Below are positions 4,512 to 17,154 of a stretch of 64,000 bases of DNA, in pieces. The position numbers and the translations under genes were made by a program. Origin of the DNA: Streptomyces erythrochromogenes (GTDB lineage: Bacteria > Actinomycetota > Actinomycetes > Streptomycetales > Streptomycetaceae); assembly GCF_036170895.1 (NCBI RefSeq), contig NZ_CP108036.1:7971501-8035500 (forward strand), read 5' to 3'. The first letter of the stretch is position 1; the number at the start of each line of letters is the position of its first letter. The notes beneath the pieces are model-generated. The model did no database searches. It was given only the letters and a program-made list of their open reading frames with translations, and was not told the origin of the DNA.

Positions 4512-6017
4512 TCACGGAGCGCTGTCGCCGCGGTCGCGTTCCTGCCGGAGCAGCTCCGGCAGGTCCCCCAGCCGGTCGAGTCCCCGGACCGGGCCGGCGG
4601 TGCGGGCGCCCCGCCCCAGCAGGGCCCGGTGGCGGTGGAGGAAGGACCAGTACCCGGCGGTGTAGGGGCAGGCGTCCTCGCCGCTGCGGGAGCCGGGGCG
4701 GTAGCGGCACGGCCCGCACAGGTCGCTCATCCGGTCGATGTAGGCGCCGCCGGACGTGTAGGGCTTCGTCGTCATCCAGCCCCCGTCCGCGTACTGCGAC
4801 ATGCCGACCACGTTGGGCAGCATGACCCAGTCGTAGCCGTCGACGAACGAGCGGTGGAACCAGTCCGTGAGCGCGGCCGGGTCCCAGCCCCGCTGGAGCG
4901 CGTAACCGCCCAGCACCATCAGCCGCGGAATGTGATGGGTCCACCCCGTGTCCCTGACCTGGCGGAGCACGGTCGACAGGCAGCGGGCCGACACGGCGTC
5001 CGCGTCGAGCGAGACCCACCACGCGGGCAGCGGGGCGGTGTGCCCCAGGACGTTGGACGTCCGGTACTCCTCGCCGAAGTGCCAGTAGAGGTGCCAGACG
5101 TACTCGCGCCATCCGGCGATCTGCCGGACGAAGCCCTCGACGGAGTTGAGCGGCGCGGCGCCGGCCCGCCACGCGGCCTCGGCGCGCTCCACGCACTCCG
5201 CCGGATCCAGCAGGCCCAGGTTGAGCGAGGAGGACAGCAGGCTGTGGCTGAGCACCGGGTCCGCGGCCAGCATGGCGTCCTCGTGGGCGCCGAACCCGGC
5301 GAGCCGGTGGTCGACGAAACGCCGCAGCGCGGCGAGCGCCTCGCGCCGGTCGGCCGGGAAGAGCCGCGGTCCGTCCCGGCCGACGAACGAGACGGCGCCG
5401 GCCCGCTCCCAGCGGTCGAGGTCTTCCCGGACGCCGGCATCGATGTCGTCCTCGCGGGGCCGGTAGGGGGCGGGTGCGCCGAGGGCCTGCGCTCCCCGCG
5501 GCGGCGGCTCCCGGTTGGCGTGGTCGAGGCTCCACCGCCCGCCGGCCGGCTCGCCCCCGTCCATCAGCAGATCGTGCTCCCTGCGCACGTGGCGGTAGAA
5601 GTTCTCCAGCCGCAGCCCTCCGTCGCCGCGGCCCGCCGCCCACGCCGCGAAATCCTCGTGGCCGACCAGGAAGCCCCGTGCGGGGAGGACGGTCACGTTG
5701 CCCAGGGAGTTCACCAGGGCCGCGGCCGCCCGGGAGGTCGGGTGGTACACCGTGACGGGCGAGCTGCCGACGGCTCGGCGCAAGCCCTCGCGGTAGGTGT
5801 CGGCCTTGACGTAGACCACGCGGTCCCCCAGCTCGGCGGCGCGATGACGCATCGCCGAGAGCACCAGGTGCGCCTTGGCCCGGTGGAACCGCCGTCGCCG
5901 GAACACGGCCTGAGATTCGATCATCACCAGTCGGGTGTCACGGGGGATCCCGCCGTTCCCCGGGGAGGTGAAGGCGGGGCCCAGCTGATCGCCGAAGATC
6001 CAGTGCGCGCCGGTCAT
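4512..6017 (-). CDS. cryptochrome/photolyase of the iron-sulfur (FeS-BCP, PhrB-like) class
   Basis: 501 residues; ATG at 6017 with AAGGG upstream. The N-terminal domain begins HWIFGDQLGP, typical of deoxyribodipyrimidine photolyase-related proteins (DPRP). The FAD-binding C-terminal half has GWREYVWHLYW and HHIPRLMVLG. Four cysteines at 346, 434, 437 and 450 keep the spacing of the [4Fe-4S] ligands of Agrobacterium PhrB (350, 438, 441, 454 as I recall them). Family members repair (6-4) photoproducts in DNA with light, using FAD and often a ribolumazine antenna. It is transcribed divergently from the UBP/DUF427/MerR-B12 genes, which suggests light-controlled expression. There is no sign of damage. 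Confidence 0.9.
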   Translation of the reverse strand: MTGAHWIFGDQLGPAFTSPGNGGIPRDTRLVMIESQAVFRRRRFHRAKAHLVLSAMRHRAAELGDRVVYVKADTYREGLRRAVGSSPVTVYHPTSRAAAALVNSLGNVTVLPARGFLVGHEDFAAWAAGRGDGGLRLENFYRHVRREHDLLMDGGEPAGGRWSLDHANREPPPRGAQALGAPAPYRPREDDIDAGVREDLDRWERAGAVSFVGRDGPRLFPADRREALAALRRFVDHRLAGFGAHEDAMLAADPVLSHSLLSSSLNLGLLDPAECVERAEAAWRAGAAPLNSVEGFVRQIAGWREYVWHLYWHFGEEYRTSNVLGHTAPLPAWWVSLDADAVSARCLSTVLRQVRDTGWTHHIPRLMVLGGYALQRGWDPAALTDWFHRSFVDGYDWVMLPNVVGMSQYADGGWMTTKPYTSGGAYIDRMSDLCGPCRYRPGSRSGEDACPYTAGYWSFLHRHRALLGRGARTAGPVRGLDRLGDLPELLRQERDRGDSAP

Positions 6018-6199
6018 GTCGCCACCCTTCCTCACACGGTGTTTGCGTCCCCCTTGCCCTTTCCCGGATGCGGGGCGCTTCGGACGCACCCTGCGGGTGG
6101 CGGGTCCGCGACGCATCCGTTCGTGGCACTCGCACAGAAGAGGGAGCACAGGAGTGTCCGCGAGCGGCGGACGCCTTCCGATCGCGGAGCGGAGGCTCG
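6018..6199. promoter_or_regulatory. divergent promoter region of the light-response block
   Basis: 182 bases separate the photolyase start (minus) from the UBP-zinc-finger gene (plus). Both promoters must lie here, and the MerR/B12 regulator encoded downstream is the obvious candidate to bind. I did not find a clear MerR-type spaced palindrome by eye. Confidence 0.4.
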
Positions 6200-6568
6200 A
6201 TGGGAGGATCCGGGCAGTGGCAGGTCGCGCCCGACGCGGGGCGCCCGGACGGACGCGCCTGCGCGCACCTCGACCTCCTGGAGCACGAGCGGGCGGCCCC
6301 GGCGGCACCGGCCGCCGGCTGCTCGGGGTGCCTGCCGCGCGGACTGCCCTGGGTGAGGCTGCGGCAGTGCGTGAGCTGCGCGTACGTCGGATGCTGCGAC
6401 AGCTCCAGGGGCCGCCACTCCTACGCGCACCACCTGGAGAGCGGGCACCCTGTAGCGGTGTCGCTCGCACCGGACGAGGACTGGGCCTGGTGCTTCCGGG
6501 ACGAGGTCTTCCTGGTCCGGGCAGGGCGGAACGCTGCGGACCCGCCGGCCGGCGGGACACGGTACTGA
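6200..6568 (+). CDS. UBP-type zinc finger domain protein
   Basis: 122 residues. The ATG at 6200 follows GGAGG at 6191-6195; a longer open frame from 6068 has no ribosome site. The body carries the Cys/His pattern of the ZnF-UBP domain (PF02148): CxxC in GCSGC, CxxC in CVSC, GCC, and HHLESGHPVAVSL. In eukaryotes this domain binds ubiquitin tails; small free-standing actinobacterial versions have no established role. It is 12 bases upstream of the DUF427 gene and co-directional with it. Confidence 0.85.
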   Translation: MGGSGQWQVAPDAGRPDGRACAHLDLLEHERAAPAAPAAGCSGCLPRGLPWVRLRQCVSCAYVGCCDSSRGRHSYAHHLESGHPVAVSLAPDEDWAWCFRDEVFLVRAGRNAADPPAGGTRY

Positions 6569-6580
6569 CGGGAGGTCCTC

Positions 6581-7078
6581 ATGGGAACGAACGGAGTGGA
6601 CAGGGCGGCGACGGAATCGGTGTGGGACTACCCGCGCCCGCCCCGGATCGAGCCCGACACGCGGCACGTGGTGGTACGGCACGCCGGCGTGGCGCTGGCC
6701 GACTCCCGGCGCTGCCTCCGCGTCCTGGAGACCAGCCACCCGCCGGTGTTCTACATACCGCGGGCCGATGTGCGCATCGAACTCCTCCGGGCCTCGGAGC
6801 ACCGGAGCGTGTGCGAGTGGAAGGGCACTGCCACCTACTGGCGGCTCGGCCCGGAGCACGGCGTCCCGCCCGCGCCCGACATCGCGTGGAGCTACGAGGC
6901 CCCGCGGCCCGACTTCGCGCCCATCACCGGTCATCTCGCGTTCCATGCCGACCGGGTCGAGGCGTGCACGGTGGACGGAGAGCGGGTCCGGCCCCAGCCG
7001 GGCGGCTTCTACGGCGGGTGGATCACGGACGAGATCACGGGCCCCTTCAAGGGCGTGCCCGGGAGCCGGGGCTGGTGA
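6581..7078 (+). CDS. DUF427 domain protein
   Basis: 165 residues; ATG at 6581 preceded by GGGAGG. Recognisable DUF427 (PF04248) features are RVEACTVDGERV near the end, the Tyr/Trp-rich SVCEWKGTATYW, and the core VFYIPRADV. DUF427 proteins are small beta-tent proteins of unknown biochemical function that are common in actinobacteria, often beside photolyases or stress genes. The stop TGA at 7076-7078 overlaps an ATG that could start the next gene, indicating cotranscription. Confidence 0.85.
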   Translation: MGTNGVDRAATESVWDYPRPPRIEPDTRHVVVRHAGVALADSRRCLRVLETSHPPVFYIPRADVRIELLRASEHRSVCEWKGTATYWRLGPEHGVPPAPDIAWSYEAPRPDFAPITGHLAFHADRVEACTVDGERVRPQPGGFYGGWITDEITGPFKGVPGSRGW

Positions 7079-7104
7079 TGGGTGGGTCCCGAGGTGGTGC
7101 CGCC

Positions 7105-8124
7105 ATGCCCGAGAAGTTCCCCTGTACTCCCCGCATGACGACCGGAGCCGTGGCCAGGCGCCTCGGGATCTCGCCCACCACCCTCAGGTCCTGGGACCGG
7201 CGCTACGGCATGGGCCCGGCGGTACGCGACGGCGGGCGGCACCGGCGCTGGACCGTCGAGGACATCGCCGTCCTGGAGGACATGTGCCGGCTCACCACGT
7301 CGGGAGTGTCCCCTTCGGAGGCCGCCGGTGTGGCGCTGTCCCGGGCGAACCGGTCCCGCGCGGTGGACCCCGGCCCGCTGCCCGCCGCCGAAGCGCGCCG
7401 GGCCCAGGGCCCCGGACCGGGTGGCGGACTGCCCCTCGGGGACATCCGGCAGGAGTTCCGGGGCCTGGCCCGCGCGGCGGTACGGCTGGACGGCCCGGCC
7501 ATGGCCGGGCTGCTGGCCGCTCTGGTGCAGGGCCACGGGCTCGTGGTGGCCTGGGAAGAGGCCATCGCACCGACCCTGCACGCGGTGGGCCGCACATGGG
7601 AGTCCTCCGGCGACCGCTACGTCGAGGTGGAGCACCTCCTGTCCTGGCACGTCTCCACCGTCCTGCGGCAGGCCGTCGGCAACGCCCCGCCGAGCCCCCG
7701 GGACGCGGCGCCGGTGCTGATGGCATGCGTTCCCGGCGAGCAGCACTCCCTGCCCCTCGAAGCGCTCGCCGCCGGCCTCGCCGAGCGCGCACTGCCCTTG
7801 CGGATGCTGGGCGCCGCGGTACCGGCCGAGGCCCTCGCGGCGTCGGTGCGCAGGACCGGGCCGTCCGCCGTGGTCCTCTGGTCCCAGTCCCGGCACACGG
7901 CCGACCGCACCCTGGCCCGCCAGGTAGCCGCGACGGCCTTCGGTGTCCGCGGCGCCCGCACCCGTCCGCTGGTGGTCCTCGCCGGCCCCGGCTGGGGCAA
8001 TCGGGCCCCCGGTCCCGGCATGCTCCGCCCGACCGGTCTGCGCGAGGCGCTGGACGTCCTGGACCGCCACTGCGCGGCCGTGGCCGGCCCGCTCACCTCC
8101 TCGGCGGCGGCCAGACGGCCCTGA
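7105..8124 (+). CDS. MerR-family regulator with cobalamin-binding domain (CarH/LitR-like)
   Basis: 339 residues. ATG at 7105 has GAGGTGG upstream with good spacing; an ATG at 7078 overlapping the previous stop is possible. Residues about 11-75 are a MerR winged helix (TGAVARRLGISPTTLRSWDRRYG). Residues about 130-200 resemble the helical B12 cap: Trp165 and Glu176-His177. The C-terminal B12-binding fold has GEQHSLP with His214 in the place of the cobalt-ligand His of the E/D-x-H-x-x-G motif. CarH/LitR proteins bind adenosylcobalamin and leave their operators on illumination. Here the Trp to Glu-His spacing is ten residues instead of the nine I recall, and Pro replaces the last Gly. The neighbouring photolyase supports a light-sensing role. 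Confidence 0.85.
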   Translation: MPEKFPCTPRMTTGAVARRLGISPTTLRSWDRRYGMGPAVRDGGRHRRWTVEDIAVLEDMCRLTTSGVSPSEAAGVALSRANRSRAVDPGPLPAAEARRAQGPGPGGGLPLGDIRQEFRGLARAAVRLDGPAMAGLLAALVQGHGLVVAWEEAIAPTLHAVGRTWESSGDRYVEVEHLLSWHVSTVLRQAVGNAPPSPRDAAPVLMACVPGEQHSLPLEALAAGLAERALPLRMLGAAVPAEALAASVRRTGPSAVVLWSQSRHTADRTLARQVAATAFGVRGARTRPLVVLAGPGWGNRAPGPGMLRPTGLREALDVLDRHCAAVAGPLTSSAAARRP

Positions 8125-8142
8125 GCGGGGCGCGACGCGGGG

Positions 8143-8322
8143 TCACCACCCCGCGATGCGCGCGACGAAGAAGGCGGCGACCAGGGCGGCCCCTATGACG
8201 ATGAGGGCCAGGAACACCCCCGGGTGCTCCCACACCCCGCCGTCGCCGCGTTCCGGATGGGCCGAGGAGATGGATCCCTCCGCCGGGGGAGTCTCCCCGG
8301 GCGGTATCCGTGGAGTGGACAT
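8143..8322 (-). CDS. DUF6480-like small membrane protein
   Basis: 59 residues; ATG at 8322 behind GGAGG. The N-terminal half is Pro/Glu-rich and contains PPGETPPAEGS, which I associate with the Streptomyces DUF6480 family. A single hydrophobic helix near residues 35-55 (PGVFLALIVIGAALVAAFF) ends the protein. Function unknown; probably a single-pass envelope protein. It converges on the MerR-B12 gene with 18 bases between stops. Confidence 0.75.
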   Translation of the reverse strand: MSTPRIPPGETPPAEGSISSAHPERGDGGVWEHPGVFLALIVIGAALVAAFFVARIAGW

Positions 8323-8404
8323 GATGCCTCCGAACTCCCCGAGATCCCCACGGTCACGCGCCCGGGCCCCCCGGTGCAACTCGCAGTGTTTCTGCATCGA
8401 AACG

Positions 8405-8435
8405 GCGGCCCGCCGCCGGGCGGGCAGCGGGCCGC
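8405..8435. terminator. probable terminator of the LuxC/LuxE-type operon
   Basis: GCGGCCCGC at 8405-8413 pairs with GCGGGCCGC at 8427-8435 around a 13-base loop. It starts 10 bases beyond the stop of the LuxC-like fusion gene on the transcribed strand. Confidence 0.55.
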
Positions 8436-8444
8436 GTACGGGAC

Positions 8445-10955
8445 CTACCTGCGGGCGTCGACCACCGCGAGGAGCTTGCCGCTGGTCGGGCTGCGGTCCA
8501 GCGACGCGCCGTCGACGGCCTCCACGACCAGGTCCAGCAGCCGCTCCGCGACCGCCGACCGGAGCTCCGGGTAGCCGGCGAGGAAGACCTCCCGCAGCCG
8601 CTCCGGATCCGTCGCCCCCGTGCGTTCCACCCGTACGGTCAGCCGTTCGCACGCGTCCGTGACGTCGAGCCGGACCTGCAGCTCGCCGCGGTGGCCGCCG
8701 CCCTCCCCGGCCAGGTCCAGGAAACGGCGGTGGTTGAGGAAGTACGTCGCCACCCGCATCACGTCGCCCGTGCGGCCCCGCAGTTCGAAGCGGGGCGCGT
8801 ACCGACCGCACGGACAGCGGCCCGGGACCTCCCGGCCGAGGTCGCCGATCACGTACCGGCCCAGCTGCTGGCCGCGCCGGGCATGCGTGGTGAAGACCAG
8901 CCGGCCCGTCTCGCCCGGCGCCGCCGGCCGGTCCTCGGCCAGGTCCAGGATCTCCATGGTGTGCAGGTCGGCGTGCAGGTGGTGGACGCCGCCGGTGCTC
9001 TCGGTGCACTGGTAGCCCAGCGGCCCGAGGTCGGTGCTGCCGTAGGTGATCGAGCGGATCACCTCGATGCCGAAGGTGTCCTTCAGGGTGCGCTGCTGCT
9101 CCGGCGTGAAGTGCTCGCCACCGTAGAAGACCTTGCGCAGACCGCCGTAGGCCCGCAGCGCGTCCGCCTCCGCGTGCAGCAGCTGCCACAGATAGGAGGG
9201 CATCCCGAACAGCGTGTCGGCCCCGTGGTCGATGAGCGCCTGGGCCGTCGCCCGGTGGTCGGGGCCGGCCGACAGCGGCAGCTGCACCCCGCCGAGGCGT
9301 TCCAGCACGGAGAAGAAGCTGATGAAGCTGCCGTACATGGCGCCGCAGTAGAAGAGGTTGGCGGTGCGGTCCCCGACCGGGTCGTAGCCGGCCGCGAGCA
9401 GGCCGCGGGCCGCCGCGTGCATCTGGGTGTCGTAGTCGTCGTAGCTGAAGATCGACAGCGCGGGCGCTCCGGTGCTGCCGCCACTGCGGAAGTACAGCTC
9501 GGCATCGGCGCGCGCCACCCGCCGGGCCGGTTCCTGCACGTCCTCCTTGCCGAGCAGCGGGCCCGCGGGCGGCGGCAGGACGACGGGCCGGGCCAGGTCG
9601 TCCAGGCAGGCGGTGGTGGCGAAGAGGGCCGGGTCTGCCTGGACGGCGACGCGGCGGCTGTAGCGCTGGAGGGCGTACACGCCGTCGTGCGGCTCGCCCG
9701 CGTAGCTCTCCAGCATGGCGCCGATCGGCGTCACACGGGTGACGCCCGCGGCCAGGGCGGTGCGGGAGAGCTCGGCGATGTCGGTCCGGCTGCCCGCGAG
9801 GCCCGCCGTCTGCAGGTAGCGGCGCATCGGGCGCAGGGTGGCGATCATCCGCTTGCGCGGCAGCGGCTTGACCCAGACGCTGCGGTGCAGCGGCGAGGCG
9901 GTGAGCGGGGACCGGGTGTCGGCCATGACCCGCCACGAGCCGTCCGGCGCGGCGAACACCCGGGTGAGACCGAGGTGTTCCTCCAGCCGGGCCATCAGCT
10001 CGGTGGTGGTCAGCTCGGCGGCCTCGGCCGGGTCCGGATCGGCCGTCGACGCGGCGCCCACCGCCGGCGGCCGGGCCGCGAGCACGGCCGCGAAGCGCTC
10101 GGCGAAGGCGAACACCTCGCCCTCGTCCTCGGTGTCGAGGTAGACCACCTGGGGGCTGGAGCAGGCCTGCTGCTCGTGCAGGCACACGTCGTCCGCGAGG
10201 GCGCCGAGCGTCACGGCGTCCGACCAGGCGTCACTCGTCAGGTAGGCGAAGGAGATCCGGTGCCCCCACTCCACCAGCCGGCAACCGGCCGGCACGTGGG
10301 CCGCCACACCTTCCACGGCGCCCTCCCCGCCCCACACGGCCACGGCGTCCGCGGGCGCGCACATGAGGCGCAGCCACTCCTGCCGGGACGACGGGAACCG
10401 CAGCACGACGATCCGCGCGGCCAGCGCGCCACTGGGGTCCAGGGCCGCCAGCTCGGCCATCAGGTGCTGGGTGAGCAGCGTGTCGGCACTGCTGGTCTTG
10501 AGGACGTTGACGTTGCCGGCGAGCAGGCCCTCGACGATGCTCAGCGGTGCCACCGTCGACGCGTTGCCCGGGGCGATGTGGGCGACCAGGCCCACGGGCG
10601 CCCACGCCTCGTAGACCGTCTCGCGCGGATCCGCCCGGTTCAGCCGGCCGGGAGCCGTGTCGCCCAGTTCCCGGCGCAGCTTGCGGGTCAGCTCACGCCG
10701 ACCGAGGAGGGCGCCGAGCTCGGCCAGGACCGCCGGGTCCTCGCCCTCCGGCAGATGCGCGGCGAGCCGGCCGTGCACCGCGTGGTCCGGGTCGCACAGC
10801 GCGGCGGAGAGGGCGTCGCAGGCGGCCAGCACGGTCTCGGTGTCCAGTTCCGTCGCCAGCGCGGCCTCGACGGCGGCCGGCAGCTCGGCGAGGCGGCGCC
10901 CGGCCTCCTCGTCGCCGACGAAGGAGCCCTGCCAGTAGTGGTGGTGCACGCTCAT
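8445..10955 (-). CDS. LuxC-type acyl reductase fused to PaaK/LuxE-like AMP ligase
   Basis: 836 residues; ATG at 10955, two bases after the upstream LuxE-like stop (TGA CC ATG). Residues about 1-430 match the long-chain acyl reductase LuxC (PF05893): APGNASTVAPLSIVEGLL, VNVLKTSSADTLL, and EQQACSSPQ with Cys265 as the likely acyl-accepting cysteine. Residues about 480-836 are a phenylacetate-CoA-ligase-like adenylating domain: P-loop FRSGGSTGAP, YGSTDLGPLGYQC and ending SPTSGKLLAVVD. LuxC proteins take an acyl group from LuxE and reduce it to an aldehyde with NADPH. The fusion could let one chain activate and reduce a substrate. Normal LuxC is about 480 residues and unfused. No luciferase gene is nearby. 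Confidence 0.85.
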   Translation of the reverse strand: MSVHHHYWQGSFVGDEEAGRRLAELPAAVEAALATELDTETVLAACDALSAALCDPDHAVHGRLAAHLPEGEDPAVLAELGALLGRRELTRKLRRELGDTAPGRLNRADPRETVYEAWAPVGLVAHIAPGNASTVAPLSIVEGLLAGNVNVLKTSSADTLLTQHLMAELAALDPSGALAARIVVLRFPSSRQEWLRLMCAPADAVAVWGGEGAVEGVAAHVPAGCRLVEWGHRISFAYLTSDAWSDAVTLGALADDVCLHEQQACSSPQVVYLDTEDEGEVFAFAERFAAVLAARPPAVGAASTADPDPAEAAELTTTELMARLEEHLGLTRVFAAPDGSWRVMADTRSPLTASPLHRSVWVKPLPRKRMIATLRPMRRYLQTAGLAGSRTDIAELSRTALAAGVTRVTPIGAMLESYAGEPHDGVYALQRYSRRVAVQADPALFATTACLDDLARPVVLPPPAGPLLGKEDVQEPARRVARADAELYFRSGGSTGAPALSIFSYDDYDTQMHAAARGLLAAGYDPVGDRTANLFYCGAMYGSFISFFSVLERLGGVQLPLSAGPDHRATAQALIDHGADTLFGMPSYLWQLLHAEADALRAYGGLRKVFYGGEHFTPEQQRTLKDTFGIEVIRSITYGSTDLGPLGYQCTESTGGVHHLHADLHTMEILDLAEDRPAAPGETGRLVFTTHARRGQQLGRYVIGDLGREVPGRCPCGRYAPRFELRGRTGDVMRVATYFLNHRRFLDLAGEGGGHRGELQVRLDVTDACERLTVRVERTGATDPERLREVFLAGYPELRSAVAERLLDLVVEAVDGASLDRSPTSGKLLAVVDARR

Positions 10956-10957
10956 GG

Positions 10958-12115
10958 TCACGCCATTCCCTTCATCAGTTCCGCCGCGGCCACGGCGCAG
11001 CTCCGGTTGCGGCTCACCCCGGCACGGCCGTGCACGGTGAACCAGGGGGTCTCCAGTTCGCACCCGCACGCCTCGCCCGGCTGCAGGGAGGCGAGGTCGC
11101 CCATGACCACGCTCTGCGCCGGCACCGAGGTGATGTACGGCGACACGAGGTGCAGGTAGCCCCGCTCCCCGTACGGCAGGGGCTCCAGGTCCCGGGTGGA
11201 GCGGATCGTCACCCGGGACCAGACGGGGGCGTGCAGCCGGTGGTGGTCGCACTCGATGTAGGGGATGCAGTGCTCCACCGACCCGAAGGTGTCCCGGATC
11301 CGCTCGCCCGGAATGCCGAGCTGCTCGGTGACGCGCGCGTACAGCTCCTCCTTCTCGATGCGCCGGTCGGCGTGGCCCTTCCAGCCGCCGCCGAGGACGA
11401 CGAGCGAGCCCTCGGGCAGGCGCAGCGGCGCCATCCCCATGGCCCGCATCCGCTCCAGGGTGAAGAAGAGGAAGGCGGGGAAGCCGAGGATGCGGACCGG
11501 GGCGTCCTCCCCCTCGAAGCGGCGCAGCGCGGCGATGCAGCCGAAGGGGTCGAACTCGTGGTCGCCGCCGGTGTTGCGCAGCGCGTACTCGACGCTGCGG
11601 GCCGGCGCGAAGTCGCACAGGTAGTTGTCGGTGAAGGCGGTGCCCAGGTTCAGCGACGGGGCGGGCTCATAGCTGTACAGGAGGTAGTTGACCTCCTGGT
11701 CCGGGGTGATCCAGCCGTTGCGCTCGAAGATCCGGGCGACCATGCGCTGCGCGGAGCGGATGGTCCAGTGGTCGAAGAACATCTGCGACTTCTGGCCGGT
11801 CGTGCCGGAGGAGGTCAGGTGCAGCTCGACGTCCTCGCGGGGTATCGAGAGCACCTCGTGGCGCTTGAAGAAGTTCGCGTGGACGAGCGGCGTACGGTAC
11901 GGCTCCGCCGGGGGAGTGGCCTCGTACAGGGAGCGGAAGAACGCGGAGCGTTCGGTGTGCCAGGCGTTGGTCTCCGCCATGGCGGCGGCGAACAGCTCGT
12001 CCACCGCGGGCCCGTGGGCGTAGGGGTCGGTCAGGTCGCACAGCTGTTGGACGTGTGGCAGGAGGGCCGGGTCGGGTACGGCCACCGGCGCGAGATGGGG
12101 GTTCATGCGGTTCAT
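10958..12115 (-). CDS. LuxE-type acyl-protein synthetase
   Basis: 385 residues; the ATG at 12115 overlaps the GNAT stop (ATGA) and has CGAGGT upstream. It shows the LuxE family (PF04443) layout: the P-loop LTSSGTTGQKSQ near 115, YSYEPAPSLNLGTAF, and a C-terminal SRNRSC with Cys373, which corresponds to the cysteine near the end of LuxE that carries the acyl group. LuxE activates a fatty acid as acyl-AMP, loads it on this cysteine and passes it to LuxC. Full length compared with the usual 370-380 residues. The directly downstream LuxC-like fusion is its expected partner. The acid substrate is unknown. Confidence 0.85.
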   Translation of the reverse strand: MNRMNPHLAPVAVPDPALLPHVQQLCDLTDPYAHGPAVDELFAAAMAETNAWHTERSAFFRSLYEATPPAEPYRTPLVHANFFKRHEVLSIPREDVELHLTSSGTTGQKSQMFFDHWTIRSAQRMVARIFERNGWITPDQEVNYLLYSYEPAPSLNLGTAFTDNYLCDFAPARSVEYALRNTGGDHEFDPFGCIAALRRFEGEDAPVRILGFPAFLFFTLERMRAMGMAPLRLPEGSLVVLGGGWKGHADRRIEKEELYARVTEQLGIPGERIRDTFGSVEHCIPYIECDHHRLHAPVWSRVTIRSTRDLEPLPYGERGYLHLVSPYITSVPAQSVVMGDLASLQPGEACGCELETPWFTVHGRAGVSRNRSCAVAAAELMKGMA

Positions 12116-13257
12116 GGGGCAACCTCGGATGGTGTGGGCAGGTGCGCCGACGCCCAGGCCGACGCGTAGCAGTCCAGATAGGGCTGGAGGGGCGGTTCGA
12201 CGGCGACGCCGCGGAAGTCGATCCGCTCGCTGGAGCGGGACAGGACGGCGTAGTCGTGGAAGCCGTCGCCGTCCGCGCGCATCGCCGGGTAGAGGGCTCC
12301 GGCGACGAACCCCTGGGCCAGGAAGGCGGAGAGGGCCTCCTGGTGGGCGAGCGGCACCAGCGCCTCCACGTAGCCGGCGCCCGCGCGGGCCAGGGCGCGG
12401 GTGACGGGTTCGAGGTGGGCGGCCGCGGCCGCCGGGTCGGGGTGGGCGGTCAGCAGGGAGCAGTACCCGCCGGCGCGGTTGAGGTAGGCGTACACCTCGA
12501 ACCGGCCGTCCTCGGGAGTGAGCAGCACGTTCGGGGTGTGCAGCGGGTAGAACCAGCCCTCCGCGCCCGGGAACCGCTCGCGGAAGCGGCGGCGTACGAA
12601 CGCCGGCGCCTCGATCATCTCCAGCTGCTCCACGGCCCCTCGCGGCGCTGGCGCCGGCAGCGGGCCGGCCGCGGCGCGCACCTGCGGGTAGCCGATGCCG
12701 AGGGCTTCCCCGGCCGTGCGCAGCAACGGCAGCAGCACGGCGGGCACTTCGGTGACGGGCACCCGGCGGTCGAGCACCCCGGGGGAGTGACGCGCGTAGA
12801 GCGCGAGGCTCTCGCGGCTGCGGAGATCCACGGCGTTGGGCAGGATGCCCAGCGGACGGAAGCCGTTGCGGGCGACGACCCGCTGCGGACCGGAGCCGAC
12901 GGTGCGGACGGTCGCGTACACCGAGTCCAGCCGGCCCGTGTCCAGCATCTCGGCGCAGAGCGCCTCGGTCAGGGTGGCGGCCAGACCGGCCGAGCGGTGC
13001 TCGGGATGCACGGCGATGCCCTCCAGCCGGGCGATCCGGCTGCCGGCCTCGCCGTGGATGGCGGCGGACGCGGCCAGGGCCCCGGTGGCGGCGCAGCGGG
13101 CGACGAGCCACAGGGAGTGCGGGTCCGCCATGAGCAGGGCCATCTCGGCCGGGTCGGTGCCGAGCGCCACGGGGTAGTGCGGTCCGTAGACCGCGTAGTA
13201 GAGCTGGCGCAGTTCGGCGATGTCCGCGGCGGTGGCCGCGGTGATGACGGGGTTCAC
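12112..13257 (-). CDS. two-domain GNAT acetyltransferase-like protein
   Basis: 381 residues; GTG at 13257 overlaps the upstream stop (GTGA). The N-terminal half has the GNAT acetyl-CoA loop EGIAVHPEHRSAGLAATL near residue 75-95 and DSVYATVRTVGSG. The C-terminal half (about 215-370) looks like a second, degenerate GNAT-type fold without a clear P-loop (WFYPLHTPNVLL, YLNRAGGYCSLL, ALVPLAHQEALSAFL). Proteins of this layout acylate amines with acyl-CoA or use aminoacyl donors. Its place inside the coupled operon suggests it modifies the product, for instance acylating an amine derived from the aldehyde; that is inference. Confidence 0.75.
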   Translation of the reverse strand: MNPVITAATAADIAELRQLYYAVYGPHYPVALGTDPAEMALLMADPHSLWLVARCAATGALAASAAIHGEAGSRIARLEGIAVHPEHRSAGLAATLTEALCAEMLDTGRLDSVYATVRTVGSGPQRVVARNGFRPLGILPNAVDLRSRESLALYARHSPGVLDRRVPVTEVPAVLLPLLRTAGEALGIGYPQVRAAAGPLPAPAPRGAVEQLEMIEAPAFVRRRFRERFPGAEGWFYPLHTPNVLLTPEDGRFEVYAYLNRAGGYCSLLTAHPDPAAAAAHLEPVTRALARAGAGYVEALVPLAHQEALSAFLAQGFVAGALYPAMRADGDGFHDYAVLSRSSERIDFRGVAVEPPLQPYLDCYASAWASAHLPTPSEVAP

Positions 13258-14540
13258 CGGGCGCCCCCGACGGCTTCCGGCTCCACCGAGGGCGCGGGTG
13301 CGGGCGTACCGGACCCCAGCAGGGCCAGCGCGCAGGCGGCGGGCAGCAGGCCGACACCCTGCACCAGGCACAGCGCCTGCGGGGAGAGCAGGTCGCCCGC
13401 GGAGCCGAACACCAGGGACGCCACCGGCAGCGAGGCGCCCAGGACGGCCTGCATCACGGCGAAGAAGCCGGGCTTGTCGGCGGTGGGCACCAGCCTCTGG
13501 AAGAGGGCCACGAACCGGACGCTGACCGCCCCGGCACACCAGCCGGCCACCGCCAGACAGCCCGCGATGACCAGGCGGTGGGCGAACAGGCCGGGCAGCG
13601 CCAGAGCGAGGGCCATCAGCCCCAGGCACCAGGCGCCGGCGACCGTGGGCCGCCCGGGAACGCGCGTGCCGGTGAAGGCGCCGACGAGGGCGCCCGCGCC
13701 CAGCGATGCCTCCAGCAGGGCGACCGTGCCGCCACCGCCGTGCAGGACCGAACGGGTGTAGAGCGGGATGACGACGAACACGGCGGCGGTGAAGAGGTTC
13801 GCCGCGGTGAAGCAGACCAGGATCCGCCGCACGTAGGGCAGTTCGCCGAGGATGCGGCGCAGCGGGCGCTGCGCAGGCGGCGCGTCCGAGCCGGCCGCGG
13901 ACGACGCCGCGTTGCGGAAGCGGGCGCTCGTGACGAGGAGGGCGGCGCCGGCGTAGGCGGCCGCGCAGCCCGCGGCGAGTCCCGCCACACCGGCCCGGTC
14001 GACCGTCAGTGCGCCGAGCAGCGCGCCGCCGAGGCCCGCCAGGGACTGGGTGGACAGCTCGAAGCCGGTCGCCGTCTCGATGTCGGCGTCGTCGACCAGC
14101 TCGGGCACCGAGGTGGTCAGGCAGGGGTCGAAGAACGCCTGGCAGGTGGCCAGGGCCAGAGCGGCGGCGTACACCCAGGCGAGCGGCGGTCCGCCGCCCT
14201 GCGCCCATACCGCGAGGAGGCCGGCGGTCGCCGCGGCCAGGCCGGCGGCGGTCCGCAGCACCGAACGGTGGGCGAACCCGGCCACCGTCCGGGCCACCAC
14301 GGGAGCCAGCACCACGGCGGGCAGCGTGCACAGGGCCATGAACAGCCCGGAGGCCAGACCGCGGGAGCCCTGCACGGCGTAGGCGACGATCCACCAGGAC
14401 ACGCCGACCTGGAACATGCGCACGGCGGCTTGGGTGAGGACCTGGCCCAACCACACGGCGGCGAAGGCGCGGTTGCGCAGGATCAGCGGGCTGCGCCGGC
14501 CCGGGGGAGCGGCCGCGGGGGTGCTGGGGGCGGCGGTCAT
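13254..14540 (-). CDS. MFS exporter of the LuxC/LuxE-type operon
   Basis: 428 residues; ATG at 14540 overlaps the stop of the upstream ligase (ATGA), and its own stop overlaps the GNAT start (GTGA). It starts with a cytosolic Pro/Ala tail, then NRAFAAVWLGQVLTQ opening helix 1, and has about 12 hydrophobic segments; the layout resembles MFS_3-type drug exporters such as enterobactin/EntS or macrolide pumps. It most likely exports the product of the operon or gives self-protection. Substrate unknown. Confidence 0.8.
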   Translation of the reverse strand: MTAAPSTPAAAPPGRRSPLILRNRAFAAVWLGQVLTQAAVRMFQVGVSWWIVAYAVQGSRGLASGLFMALCTLPAVVLAPVVARTVAGFAHRSVLRTAAGLAAATAGLLAVWAQGGGPPLAWVYAAALALATCQAFFDPCLTTSVPELVDDADIETATGFELSTQSLAGLGGALLGALTVDRAGVAGLAAGCAAAYAGAALLVTSARFRNAASSAAGSDAPPAQRPLRRILGELPYVRRILVCFTAANLFTAAVFVVIPLYTRSVLHGGGGTVALLEASLGAGALVGAFTGTRVPGRPTVAGAWCLGLMALALALPGLFAHRLVIAGCLAVAGWCAGAVSVRFVALFQRLVPTADKPGFFAVMQAVLGASLPVASLVFGSAGDLLSPQALCLVQGVGLLPAACALALLGSGTPAPAPSVEPEAVGGAR

Positions 14541-15826
14541 GCCGTCGGCCTCTCGTCGAGGACCCGGACGAGCTTGCCCGAGCGCGGGTTGACGGCGAGG
14601 TCGCGGTGGCGCGCCCACTCCACGGACAGCGGGTGCACGAACCCGGCACGCACGCTGTCGGGATACAGCGGCCGTACGCTCTCCAGCTCCGCGACGACGG
14701 CCCGCGCGAGGGACTCCCGCCGATCCGCTTCCCGGCGATCCGGGTCGTGTTCGTCCCCGGGGGCGGTCGCCAGCCGCAGGACGAGCCCGTCGCGGCCCTC
14801 CCAGCGCCGGACGACGAGCTGCATGCCGACGACCTGCCCGGCGGTGTCGGCCGCGGCCACGGCGTCCTGGGCGTCCTGCGTGTAGAGGGACACGGGTCCG
14901 ACGCGTACGCCCTCCTCGGCGCGGCCGAGGATCCGGAAGTGCCCGGGTCCGGTGCCGGTCCATTCGGCCCGGTCGCCGGCGGGGTAGCGGATGATCGGCA
15001 TCAGGCGGCGGAACAGGCTCGTGACGACGACCCGGCCGGGCCGGCCCGGCTCGGTGACGGGCTCGTCCGTGGAGTCGTCGAGGATCTCGATGAGGGAGTA
15101 CGGGGTGAAGGCCCGGTGCACCCGCGCGTCGGCGCCCGGCACGGGCCGGCCGAGCAAGCCGGCGTCCACGCTGGCGTAGCCGACGGAGCGGACCTCGGCG
15201 CCGGGGAACGCGGCCGCCAGCAGACGCCGTTGGTCGTCGAAGAGCGCCTCGCCGCCGAAGAGGAGCAGCTCGACGGAATCGAGCCGGACGCCGGACCCGA
15301 CGACCTGTTCGGCGAGCCGGCACAGGGTGGTGGGCGTACCGGCGAGCACCTGCGCGGCGAGATCGCGCAGCGTGGGGATCGTCGACTCCAGCGGGGCGCC
15401 GCCGCCGATGGGCAGGCGGACGTTGTCCACGGGCGCGTGGGCGAGCGAGTCGAGGACGAACAGGAAGCTGGCGTACAGCTCCCCGGCGTAGAAGAGGTCG
15501 GCGACGCGGTGTCCCGGGCGCAGTCCCGTGTCCACGAGGCCCTGCCCGAAGGAGGTGACGAAGGTGCGCCACTCGTCCCGGGTGTAGACGGAGAACTTGG
15601 GGGATCCGGTGGTGCCGCCGGTCTTGTAGACCGTGGCCTCGCTGAGCGGGCCGGTCAGTACGCGGCTGTCGTGCAGGGTGTTGGCCGCCCAGAACGCCTG
15701 CTGGTCGACCACGGGAAGGTCGCTGAGACGGTCGGCGTGAGGCGGCAGGGATCCGTAGAGGTCCCGGTAGAAGGGCGAGTTGTGACGGGCGAAACGTATG
15801 AGGTCCGAGAGTTGCTGGGCGGACAT
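14537..15826 (-). CDS. stand-alone PaaK/coenzyme F390 synthetase-like AMP ligase
   Basis: About 429 residues from the ATG at 15826 (MSAQQLSDLIRFARHN). An in-frame GTG at 15976 would add about 50 Pro-rich residues without homology and without a ribosome site, so I prefer the inner start. Motifs are FYRDLYG at the N terminus typical of PaaK-like ligases, the P-loop YKTGGTTGSPK near 90, ELLLFGGEALF, and a final RSGKLVRVLDE. The family forms acyl- or aryl-adenylates and usually thioesters. It heads a run of five coupled genes and probably activates a carboxylic building block. Its similarity in design to the C-terminal part of the downstream fusion suggests the two act on different acids or in sequence. 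Confidence 0.8.
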   Translation of the reverse strand: MSAQQLSDLIRFARHNSPFYRDLYGSLPPHADRLSDLPVVDQQAFWAANTLHDSRVLTGPLSEATVYKTGGTTGSPKFSVYTRDEWRTFVTSFGQGLVDTGLRPGHRVADLFYAGELYASFLFVLDSLAHAPVDNVRLPIGGGAPLESTIPTLRDLAAQVLAGTPTTLCRLAEQVVGSGVRLDSVELLLFGGEALFDDQRRLLAAAFPGAEVRSVGYASVDAGLLGRPVPGADARVHRAFTPYSLIEILDDSTDEPVTEPGRPGRVVVTSLFRRLMPIIRYPAGDRAEWTGTGPGHFRILGRAEEGVRVGPVSLYTQDAQDAVAAADTAGQVVGMQLVVRRWEGRDGLVLRLATAPGDEHDPDRREADRRESLARAVVAELESVRPLYPDSVRAGFVHPLSVEWARHRDLAVNPRSGKLVRVLDERPTA

Positions 15827-16074
15827 GGGCCTTTGCCTAGGTGACGGAAGTGGGACGGGAGCCACGGTGGGGCACGGCGAGAGCAAGGACTCGCCTGCCG
15901 CATCGACCGGTGCGAGCGGGGGACCCCCCGGCGCCCCCGCCTCCTCGACGCACGTCGAAAGCTGACGTGCAGTCACGATGATGAAACATCAGTGCGCAAG
16001 TCACCAAATTGAGCGAAGATTCCAGGCCATTGTGGCAACATTCAACAATTCTTGCGGCACGGGCCCGTGTTCCA
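15827..16074. promoter_or_regulatory. promoter region upstream of the LuxC/LuxE-type operon
   Basis: About 250 bases between the PucR regulator stop and the ligase start. The part at about 15970-16060 is clearly richer in A/T than its surroundings (for example AACATTCAACAATTCTTG near 16036), which is unusual here and fits a promoter/operator for the minus-strand operon. No defined palindrome was recognised. Confidence 0.5.
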
Positions 16075-17154
16075 TCAGTCGTCCAGCAGCCGCCACGCGG
16101 TGAGGGCGAGCCCCGCCCGCATCAGGCCGGCGGGCCGGGTCAGTTCGATGCCCAGGGTCTTCGTGATCTGTTCCAGCCTGCGGGCGACGCTGCTGTGGTG
16201 CAGGTGGAGGCGGTCGGCGGCCCTGCGCAGGGAGCCGGTGGCGCAGAAGGCGTCCAGCGTCTCCAGGTCCTCCGGGTTGCGGGCCATGCGGGCGATCGCG
16301 GCCACGTCGCCGTTGGCGCGTGCGGCGTCCTCGGGTATCTCGGCCAGAAGGGCCAGGGCCCCCAGGTCGTCGTAGCGGACGACCGGTTGGCGCGCGGATG
16401 TGAAGCGGAGGGCGGTCAGGGCCTCCCGCCAGGACCGGGCGGGATCGTCGCAGGCGCCGATGCCGGCGCGGACGTCCGCGGGGAGGCGGTCGGGGAGCCG
16501 GCCCAGGGGGATGGCCGTGGCCGTGGCCGGGGCGATGGCGGTGGCCAGGACGACGCCGACGCCGGCGAGCGGAGCCGCCTTCACCGGGCGGCGGCCCGGG
16601 CAGAGCAGCCCGGCGGCCCGGTCCAGCGGAAGCTCCGACCGTACGGCGGCGACACGGACCGGCAGGTCGGCGGCGAAGCCGAGCAGTCGCAGCGCCCGGG
16701 CCCGGCCCGCCTCGTCGCAGTCGGAGCTGACGACCAACTCCACGAGGGCGGGGTCGGCCATGGTCGTGCGGGCCGGGCCGTACCGTTCGACGACCGCCGC
16801 GACGGCGATGGCCAGTCGGTCCAGCAGGACCTCGTCGAGCGGGTTGGGCGGGCCGGGGCGCTCCAGCCAGACCGTACCGATCTCCTCCTCGTCGAGGGTG
16901 ATGGGCGCGGCGGTGGACGCGGACGCCGGCGGGGGCGGGGCGGGCGCGTCGGCGCCGTCGGGCGAGGCGCGGACCACCCGCCCCGTGCCGTGCAGCCGGA
17001 CCCCGGCCACGCACTCGGCCAGGCCTGCCGAGGACCTGGCCAGCGCGGCCAGATCCACCCGCCGGCGCATCAGCGTGTCGTAGAACGCGACGACGCGGAT
17101 CGCGCCTTCCGCGTGTGCGTCCAGTTGCGACAGCCGTGCGGCGAGTGCCTCCAT
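16075..17154 (-). CDS. PucR-family transcriptional regulator (C-terminal HTH_30)
   Basis: 359 residues from ATG 17154. The last about 60 residues are the PucR/CdaR-type helix-turn-helix: ETLDAFCATGSLRRAADRLHLHHSSVARRLEQITKTLGI. The middle is a weak GGDEF-like/PAS-like sensory part usual in the family. PucR proteins activate catabolic or biosynthetic operons in response to a metabolite. It lies just upstream of, and in the same direction as, the five-gene LuxC/LuxE-type operon, so it is the probable pathway regulator. There is no clear ribosome site at the chosen start. Confidence 0.85.
   Translation of the reverse strand: MEALAARLSQLDAHAEGAIRVVAFYDTLMRRRVDLAALARSSAGLAECVAGVRLHGTGRVVRASPDGADAPAPPPPASASTAAPITLDEEEIGTVWLERPGPPNPLDEVLLDRLAIAVAAVVERYGPARTTMADPALVELVVSSDCDEAGRARALRLLGFAADLPVRVAAVRSELPLDRAAGLLCPGRRPVKAAPLAGVGVVLATAIAPATATAIPLGRLPDRLPADVRAGIGACDDPARSWREALTALRFTSARQPVVRYDDLGALALLAEIPEDAARANGDVAAIARMARNPEDLETLDAFCATGSLRRAADRLHLHHSSVARRLEQITKTLGIELTRPAGLMRAGLALTAWRLLDD

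Follow-up and report, generated by a model that had tools for sequence, protein, structure and literature searches.

Which product is made by a five-gene operon of Streptomyces erythrochromogenes that combines enzymes of the LuxE and LuxC families with two PaaK-like ligases, an N-acyltransferase and an exporter? The operon lies in a window of 64,000 nucleotides, which is the whole stretch of DNA analysed here (NCBI RefSeq assembly GCF_036170895.1, contig NZ_CP108036.1, positions 7,971,501 to 8,035,500 of the forward strand) and corresponds to 7.97-8.04 Mb of an 8.50-Mb contig in an 8.6-Mb genome. Leupeptin is acetyl-Leu-Leu-argininal, a protease inhibitor in wide use; this compound, or an N-acyl-tripeptide aldehyde very similar to it, is probably the product of the operon and would be assembled by separate small enzymes instead of a single large nonribosomal peptide synthetase (NRPS). 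The substrates, the bond made by each ligase and the product itself are inferred. The genes and domains on which this proposal is built are the following:

14537..15826, minus strand: gene A, PaaK-like AMP-forming ligase, 429 amino acids; Pfam, NCBIfam and PDB matches; P-loop and A10 lysine conserved
13254..14540, minus strand: gene B, MFS exporter, 428 amino acids; Pfam MFS_1 and NCBIfam
12112..13257, minus strand: gene C, two-domain GNAT N-acyltransferase, 381 amino acids, GTG start; Pfam Acetyltransf_1
10958..12115, minus strand: gene D, LuxE-type acyl-AMP/acyl-protein synthetase, 385 amino acids; P-loop at residues 102-110, C-terminal Cys373
8445..10955, minus strand: gene E, fusion of a LuxC acyl reductase with a PaaK-like ligase, 836 amino acids
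9654..10850, minus strand: LuxC domain of E, about residues 36-434, catalytic Cys265; Pfam 294 bits
8448..9497, minus strand: PaaK-like ligase domain of E, about residues 487-836; P-loop, C-x-C-G motif at 714-717, A10 Lys827

An earlier sequence-only reading had placed five coupled minus-strand genes at 8445-15826, and its coordinates and its account of the coupling are all confirmed. The transcription order is A-B-C-D-E; A/B and C/D share ATGA, B/C share GTGA, and the D/E junction reads TGA CC ATG. As the reading frames are open and conserved across many species, the operon is not a chance array. Pfam and NCBIfam agree on the families of the five proteins: D matches LuxE with 82 bits and E matches both LuxC (294 bits) and AMP-binding (38 bits), while A reaches 27.1 bits for AMP-binding, under the cut-off of 29.9, and its NCBIfam and PDB matches are PaaK-like. 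Neither a carrier-protein nor a condensation domain was found by Pfam in the five proteins. Some of the protein queries for minus-strand genes were without their first residue, and the start codons chosen by script are approximate.

The two cysteines singled out by the same reading proved to be conserved: Cys373 of D is identical in 53/53 alignment rows and Cys265 of E is invariant in an alignment of 18 rows. Besides, the C-terminal cysteine of D aligns with a LuxE cysteine that is likewise C-terminal (PDB 7xc6). Motif alignment across the loci revealed that the adenylation P-loop and the A10 lysine are conserved in A and in the ligase half of E, and that the catalytic motifs are intact in nearly all operon copies; among its 51 A rows, that of locus L046 is really the ligase half of E, and for E the row of L054 holds a wrong open reading frame (ORF), the contig stopping inside E. 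The A ligase and the ligase half of E share 28-31% identity only, as calculated for a subset of the loci. The AlphaFold model of C has a mean pLDDT (predicted local distance difference test score) of 84, and its N-terminal domain has the GNAT fold; the fold comparison covers mainly the first 164 residues, so the second half is barely tested. In this comparison aminoglycoside acetyltransferases score about level with N-alpha acetyltransferases, and the search with C among PDB sequences gave one weak match only. The structure model of E was weak (pLDDT 70, predicted template modelling score 0.41) and was not used.

Two ligases, an ATP-using LuxE/LuxC pair and a GNAT protein would account for two bonds, an aldehyde and an N-acyl cap, that is, for an N-acyl-tripeptide aldehyde; together with the exporter, this set of two AMP ligases, two-part ATP-dependent reductase and N-acyltransferase suits an N-capped tripeptide aldehyde. 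In the proposed pathway, C would transfer an acetyl (or propionyl) group from CoA onto leucine, A would adenylate N-acyl-Leu and couple a second leucine, and the ligase half of E would adenylate N-acyl-Leu-Leu and couple arginine, giving leupeptin acid. D would then adenylate the arginine carboxylate and hold the thioester on Cys373, from which the LuxC half of E would take the acyl group onto Cys265 and reduce it with NAD(P)H to the argininal, and B would export the product. That the genes form a small-molecule pathway to an aldehyde, exporter and acetyltransferase included, had been proposed by the sequence-only reading, and this part of it is supported.

The leupABCD genes were reportedly first described by Li et al. 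(2020) in gammaproteobacteria, namely Klebsiella michiganensis/oxytoca, Photorhabdus and Xenorhabdus. In Xenorhabdus bovienii, leupeptin is produced without an NRPS by separate AMP-dependent ligases and a reductase (PMC11212599); the Klebsiella locus consists of leupABCD, 5,831 bp by its coordinates, and an adjacent transporter (PMC8283571); and the reduction of leupeptin acid uses NADH and ATP (PMC7714073). The earlier reading knew of no described cluster with exactly this set; the lack of a described counterpart is not supported, as this non-NRPS system with its adjacent transporter resembles the operon in gene content (PMC11212599, PMC8283571). Compared with these descriptions, A and the C-terminal half of E, both PaaK-like, would represent the separate AMP-dependent ligases, with amide-bond formation predicted from sequence; Cys373 of D and Cys265 of the LuxC half of E are intact, as suits the predicted aldehyde-forming reductase; and A, C, D and E with B fit four biosynthetic genes and an adjacent transporter with no NRPS. 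By comparison with the published descriptions of leupABCD, the system is best classed with the leup (leupeptin) kind, of which it would be a Streptomyces member. A Streptomyces counterpart of the non-NRPS pathway known from gammaproteobacteria is the best-supported reading. No report of these genes in Streptomyces was met in excerpts of the open-licence literature, a report elsewhere being possible, and the leupeptin genes of Streptomyces are not named in the excerpts of the open-licence literature on leupeptin. antiSMASH has a Leupeptin region type, tabulated for Photorhabdus (PMC12542766), so existing software may already flag the operon.

If the five genes form one pathway, are they inherited together? 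Named genomes were scanned with D by short exact peptide patterns, which yielded at least 49 loci with D present by choice, and the presence of the other genes was scored by tblastn at half coverage or more. E was found in 49/49 loci, C in 48/49, B in 45/49 and A in 48/49, the A match in L046 being the ligase half of E at a contig edge (hence 48 rather than 49). B had no match in two Streptacidiphilus loci and in a metagenome-assembled genome of Bdellovibrionales, and it is cut by the contig edge in L046. The order A-B-C-D-E is kept in 45/49 loci; the remainder are B-C-D-E at the contig edge (L046), C-D-E-A without B in the two Streptacidiphilus loci, and a three-gene operon D-E-A in the Bdellovibrionales genome (L080, 9959-14916), with no acyltransferase or exporter beside it. 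Overlaps of 4 bases between stop and start occur at B/C in 41/43 loci, at C/D in 37/45, at A/B in 29/43 and at D/E in 19/46, leaving out L039, L046 and L054. The conserved synteny that the earlier reading had suggested looking for is present, the operon being intact and syntenic in many Streptomyces.

Among 293 genomes of the order, full-length E occurs in 40 (a 41st, G184, matches the ligase half only), C in the same 40, and A in those 40 and in 8 others at 50-54% identity, the three presence lists having been compared by eye; no stops were found inside the matches listed to E, A and C. With L046 and L055 left out, the pairwise distances calculated for A, B, C, D and each half of E correlate at 0.91-0.98 over 903-1081 pairs. 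Some operon copies sit on plasmids, and the identity of D falls to 66% in the Streptacidiphilus copies and to 54% in the Bdellovibrionales copy. The operon is a self-contained cassette inherited as one, and it probably moves as one unit. None of the flanking ORFs queried is present in more than 4/49 loci; with no further gene seen to accompany the cassette, primary metabolites should serve as its substrates.

These observations bear on whether the aldehyde is a peptide at all. In luminous marine bacteria, LuxE and LuxC make the fatty aldehyde for luciferase. The link to fatty aldehyde and luciferase drawn by the sequence-only reading stands as family kinship of the enzymes and goes no further: neither luciferase nor LuxD was found among the five genes by Pfam, and no other queried gene travels with the LuxC/LuxE genes. 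A luciferase-like role in fatty-aldehyde supply was rejected for the same lack of lux partners in the five genes. More generally, an aryl or fatty acid might be activated and reduced, with the GNAT protein modifying or detoxifying the product, for which GriC/GriD of grixazone and EhpF/EhpG of griseoluteate are precedents. Such an aryl acid reductase pair comprises one PaaK/F390-type ligase and one reductase of LuxC type, and the aryl acid on which it acts is produced by the same cluster. A and the ligase half of E are indeed PaaK-like, their solved relatives including PaaK and AjiA1 in both cases and, for A, EhpF as well; the kinship of A with EhpF is weak, and no aryl-acid gene lies among the five. 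A non-peptide aldehyde is nevertheless very unlikely, since two ligases and a LuxE-type enzyme exceed the needs of one reduction, no queried flanking gene travels with the cassette, and the description of leup fits better (PMC8283571, PMC11212599).

Relatives of the operon are also found in enterobacteria. In at least two Salmonella plasmids, D-E-A stands between a shortened MFS-like gene on the upstream side and a GNAT gene on the downstream side; Pfam gives no family for the shortened gene, the MFS label being our own reading. These are the Salmonella enterica IncF plasmids CP053580.1 (L087) and CP054717.1 (L133), both typed as conjugative. In L087, identity with the window is 53% for D, 40% for A and 34 and 42% for the two halves of E. 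One of the plasmids has a broken GNAT frame; in the other the frame is open and encodes 294 amino acids. The Salmonella copies bring the same enzyme set into the bacterial family where leup was described, and no near match to the Salmonella operon was found in E. coli genomes. The published leupA and leupB primers have no match within 3 mismatches in L087; the seven residues encoded by the leupB primer fit the Salmonella D and A proteins equally (4/7 each), and those encoded by the leupA primer agree with no N-terminus among the four Salmonella proteins.

A report of 1969 described leupeptin from actinomycetes (cited in PMC10548850), and two operon-bearing species can be related to its production. 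S. xanthophaeus no2 without one phosphopantetheinyl transferase made acetyl-Leu-Leu and propionyl-Leu-Leu, of which the former, as the authors note, is considered to arise by degradation of leupeptin (PMC9769936), and another S. xanthophaeus strain carries the operon (L053); the acetyl/propionyl pair could fit the output of an acyl-CoA GNAT. The broth of S. virginiae THA-960 contained a leupeptin mass, called tentative by its authors (PMC13273461), and S. virginiae NRRL ISP-5094 carries the operon (L036). These links at the species level are leads, not proof.

Several points weigh against leupeptin as the product. The strains that were sequenced are not the reported producers, and for S. virginiae the assignment is tentative. 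The leupeptin of Streptomyces strain LN699 is assigned to an antipain NRPS (PMC11212599) and Streptomyces leupeptin is grouped with NRPS products (PMC10548850). The comparison with leupABCD is by published description, the published primer sequences not being decisive, and the Salmonella GNAT reaches no more than 26% identity with C, along 140 residues. Moreover, partial sets exist: the Bdellovibrionales copy has no C or B nearby, some relatives of D pair with LuxC alone, and 8/293 genomes hold a 50-54% relative of A without C or E. As regards the NRPS assignments, NRPS and non-NRPS routes to leupeptin may both be present in the genus. The same assignments (PMC10548850, PMC11212599) would be in line with the operon being a decayed or silent relic, with Streptomyces leupeptin coming from antipain-type NRPSs, which is extremely improbable given that the motifs are intact in nearly all copies, that the matches listed contain no stops and that the genes have been inherited jointly over large distances.

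Could the product be a sister peptide aldehyde, in which N-acylation, two ligations and C-terminal reduction are kept with other amino acids, rather than leupeptin itself? Ligase specificity is inferred only, and the divergence of D in Streptacidiphilus (66%) and Bdellovibrionales (54%) leaves room for other substrates. A second, divergent copy (L123; G279:C1:522000-540000, 5845-12090) has B, C, D and E and no A within 18 kb, and it would suit an N-acyl-dipeptide aldehyde. Besides, among the products of the leup operons in Xenorhabdus and Photorhabdus is a homoarginine variant of a leupeptin-derived pyrazinone (PMC11480411). On the other hand, two operon-bearing species have strains that yield leupeptin, tentatively, or acyl-Leu-Leu according to the papers cited above, and for the operon of the window a sister product is rather unlikely. 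Leupeptin or a very close relative is the reading retained.

Regarding regulation, a PucR regulator had been noted upstream. The gene at 16075-17154 does have a PucR-type helix-turn-helix domain (Pfam), but it is not part of the unit: a relative is present in 1/49 loci, and PucR was rejected as a dedicated regulator of the operon. A different feature lies between this gene and A:

15962..15992, minus strand: conserved upstream element with the palindrome GATG-TTT-CATC, putative promoter/operator

In 19/43 loci the region upstream of A agrees with a 28-base core from the window at no fewer than 25 positions, and in the other 24 it does not (L039, L046, L055, L076, L077 and L080 are left out), whereas one shuffle per upstream region gave a best of 16 and a mean of 14 matched positions. 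The element is proposed as the promoter/operator of the operon, and recent common descent may also account for its conservation.

Relatives of D and LuxC are found in other gene contexts. On a linear plasmid of S. europaeiscabiei (L088; NZ_CP109155.1), region 8325-14713 contains MBL-fold, MNIO/DUF692, LuxE-type and LuxC-type genes and a 53-codon ORF. There, a relative of D (50%) and a LuxC without ligase sit after the MNIO-family (PF05114) enzyme, and the annotated ORF (14552-14713) begins 80 bases past the pair; in it a 27-base repeat occurs four times, and every copy encodes FPFR preceded by one or two D, E or N. A YcaO-like gene is nearby on the opposite strand. If the FPFR repeats are cores, they end in Arg like leupeptin acid and would fit D and LuxC acting on Arg-ending peptides, as in the proposed leupeptin pathway. 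These genes are a possible pathway of ribosomally synthesised and post-translationally modified peptides (RiPPs) to peptide-argininals. It is a tentative and somewhat doubtful idea that D with LuxC forms a portable reductase of Arg-ending peptide C-termini, serving two pathways of unrelated kinds, NRPS-free leupeptin operons and the putative RiPP pathway of the S. europaeiscabiei plasmid. No second FPFR-type example was seen among the matches of a 391-genome search with the L088 D protein, the surroundings having been viewed for some matches only, and a brief search of the literature did not bring up ribosomal peptide-argininals as a class. Two-gene LuxE and LuxC operons without ligases occur on a Chloroflexota plasmid (L089, 9815-12216) and in genome G405 (L130, 6871-9278), and no FPFR-like ORF was recognised with either pair. 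On a Priestia megaterium plasmid (L092, 5723-11655), a distant LuxE homologue (24%) stands in a row with genes for a fatty acyl-AMP ligase, an oxidoreductase, a carrier protein, an Fe-S scaffold and a cysteine desulfurase, which looks like another small pathway.

Other observations concern the surroundings of the operon and of ligase A. On the linear plasmid of Streptomyces sp. NBC_00158 (L134, 13398-14765), three genes annotated as peptidase inhibitor I36 are found just past the operon, as if protease inhibitors were grouped. Relatives of ligase A outside the operon, at 48-53% identity, were seen in L137, L138, L139, L140, L141 and L142; a short-chain dehydrogenase adjoins in L137, L141 and L142, an MFS gene in L139 and L141, and a RimK-like ATP-grasp gene with a second PaaK-like ligase in L139. 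They perhaps belong to another small ligase pathway.

The operon is a compact, testable candidate for the leupeptin genes of Streptomyces, present in 40/293 genomes of the order and on some plasmids. If the proposal is true, it would unite the leupeptin pathways of Streptomyces and gammaproteobacteria, and a two-protein reductase of peptide acids would be handy for making peptide aldehydes.

How, then, does this system compare with those already known? The NRPS peptide aldehydes of Streptomyces (antipain, MAPI, flavopeptins) and livipeptin, for which a tRNA-utilizing enzyme and an NRPS have been proposed (PMC10548850), belong to the same or a neighbouring class of N-capped peptide aldehydes, whereas the operon has no condensation or carrier domain by Pfam, unlike the antipain type, in which modules for adenylation, carriage and condensation are combined with a reductase domain at the end. 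A and the C-terminal half of E match PaaK-like ligases (PaaK, AjiA1, PDB 6siw, EhpF) in sequence and keep their adenylation motifs; the difference is that peptide-bond formation is predicted for the ligases of the operon. Homology to the LuxC/LuxE fatty acid reductase (PDB 7xc6) is seen in D and in the first half of E, where the C-terminal cysteine of LuxE and a cysteine of LuxC are kept. Unlike in luminous bacteria, there is no luxA, luxB or luxD among the five genes, LuxC is fused to a PaaK-like ligase, and a peptide acid is the proposed substrate. The closest likeness by description is to leupABCD of gammaproteobacteria, which as published also comprises separate AMP-dependent ligases and a reductase, with four genes and a transporter and no NRPS. 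When the Salmonella copy is taken as a stand-in for leup, the genes run MFS-D-E-A-GNAT there and A-B-C-D-E here, and the GNAT protein has 294 amino acids there against the 381 of C.

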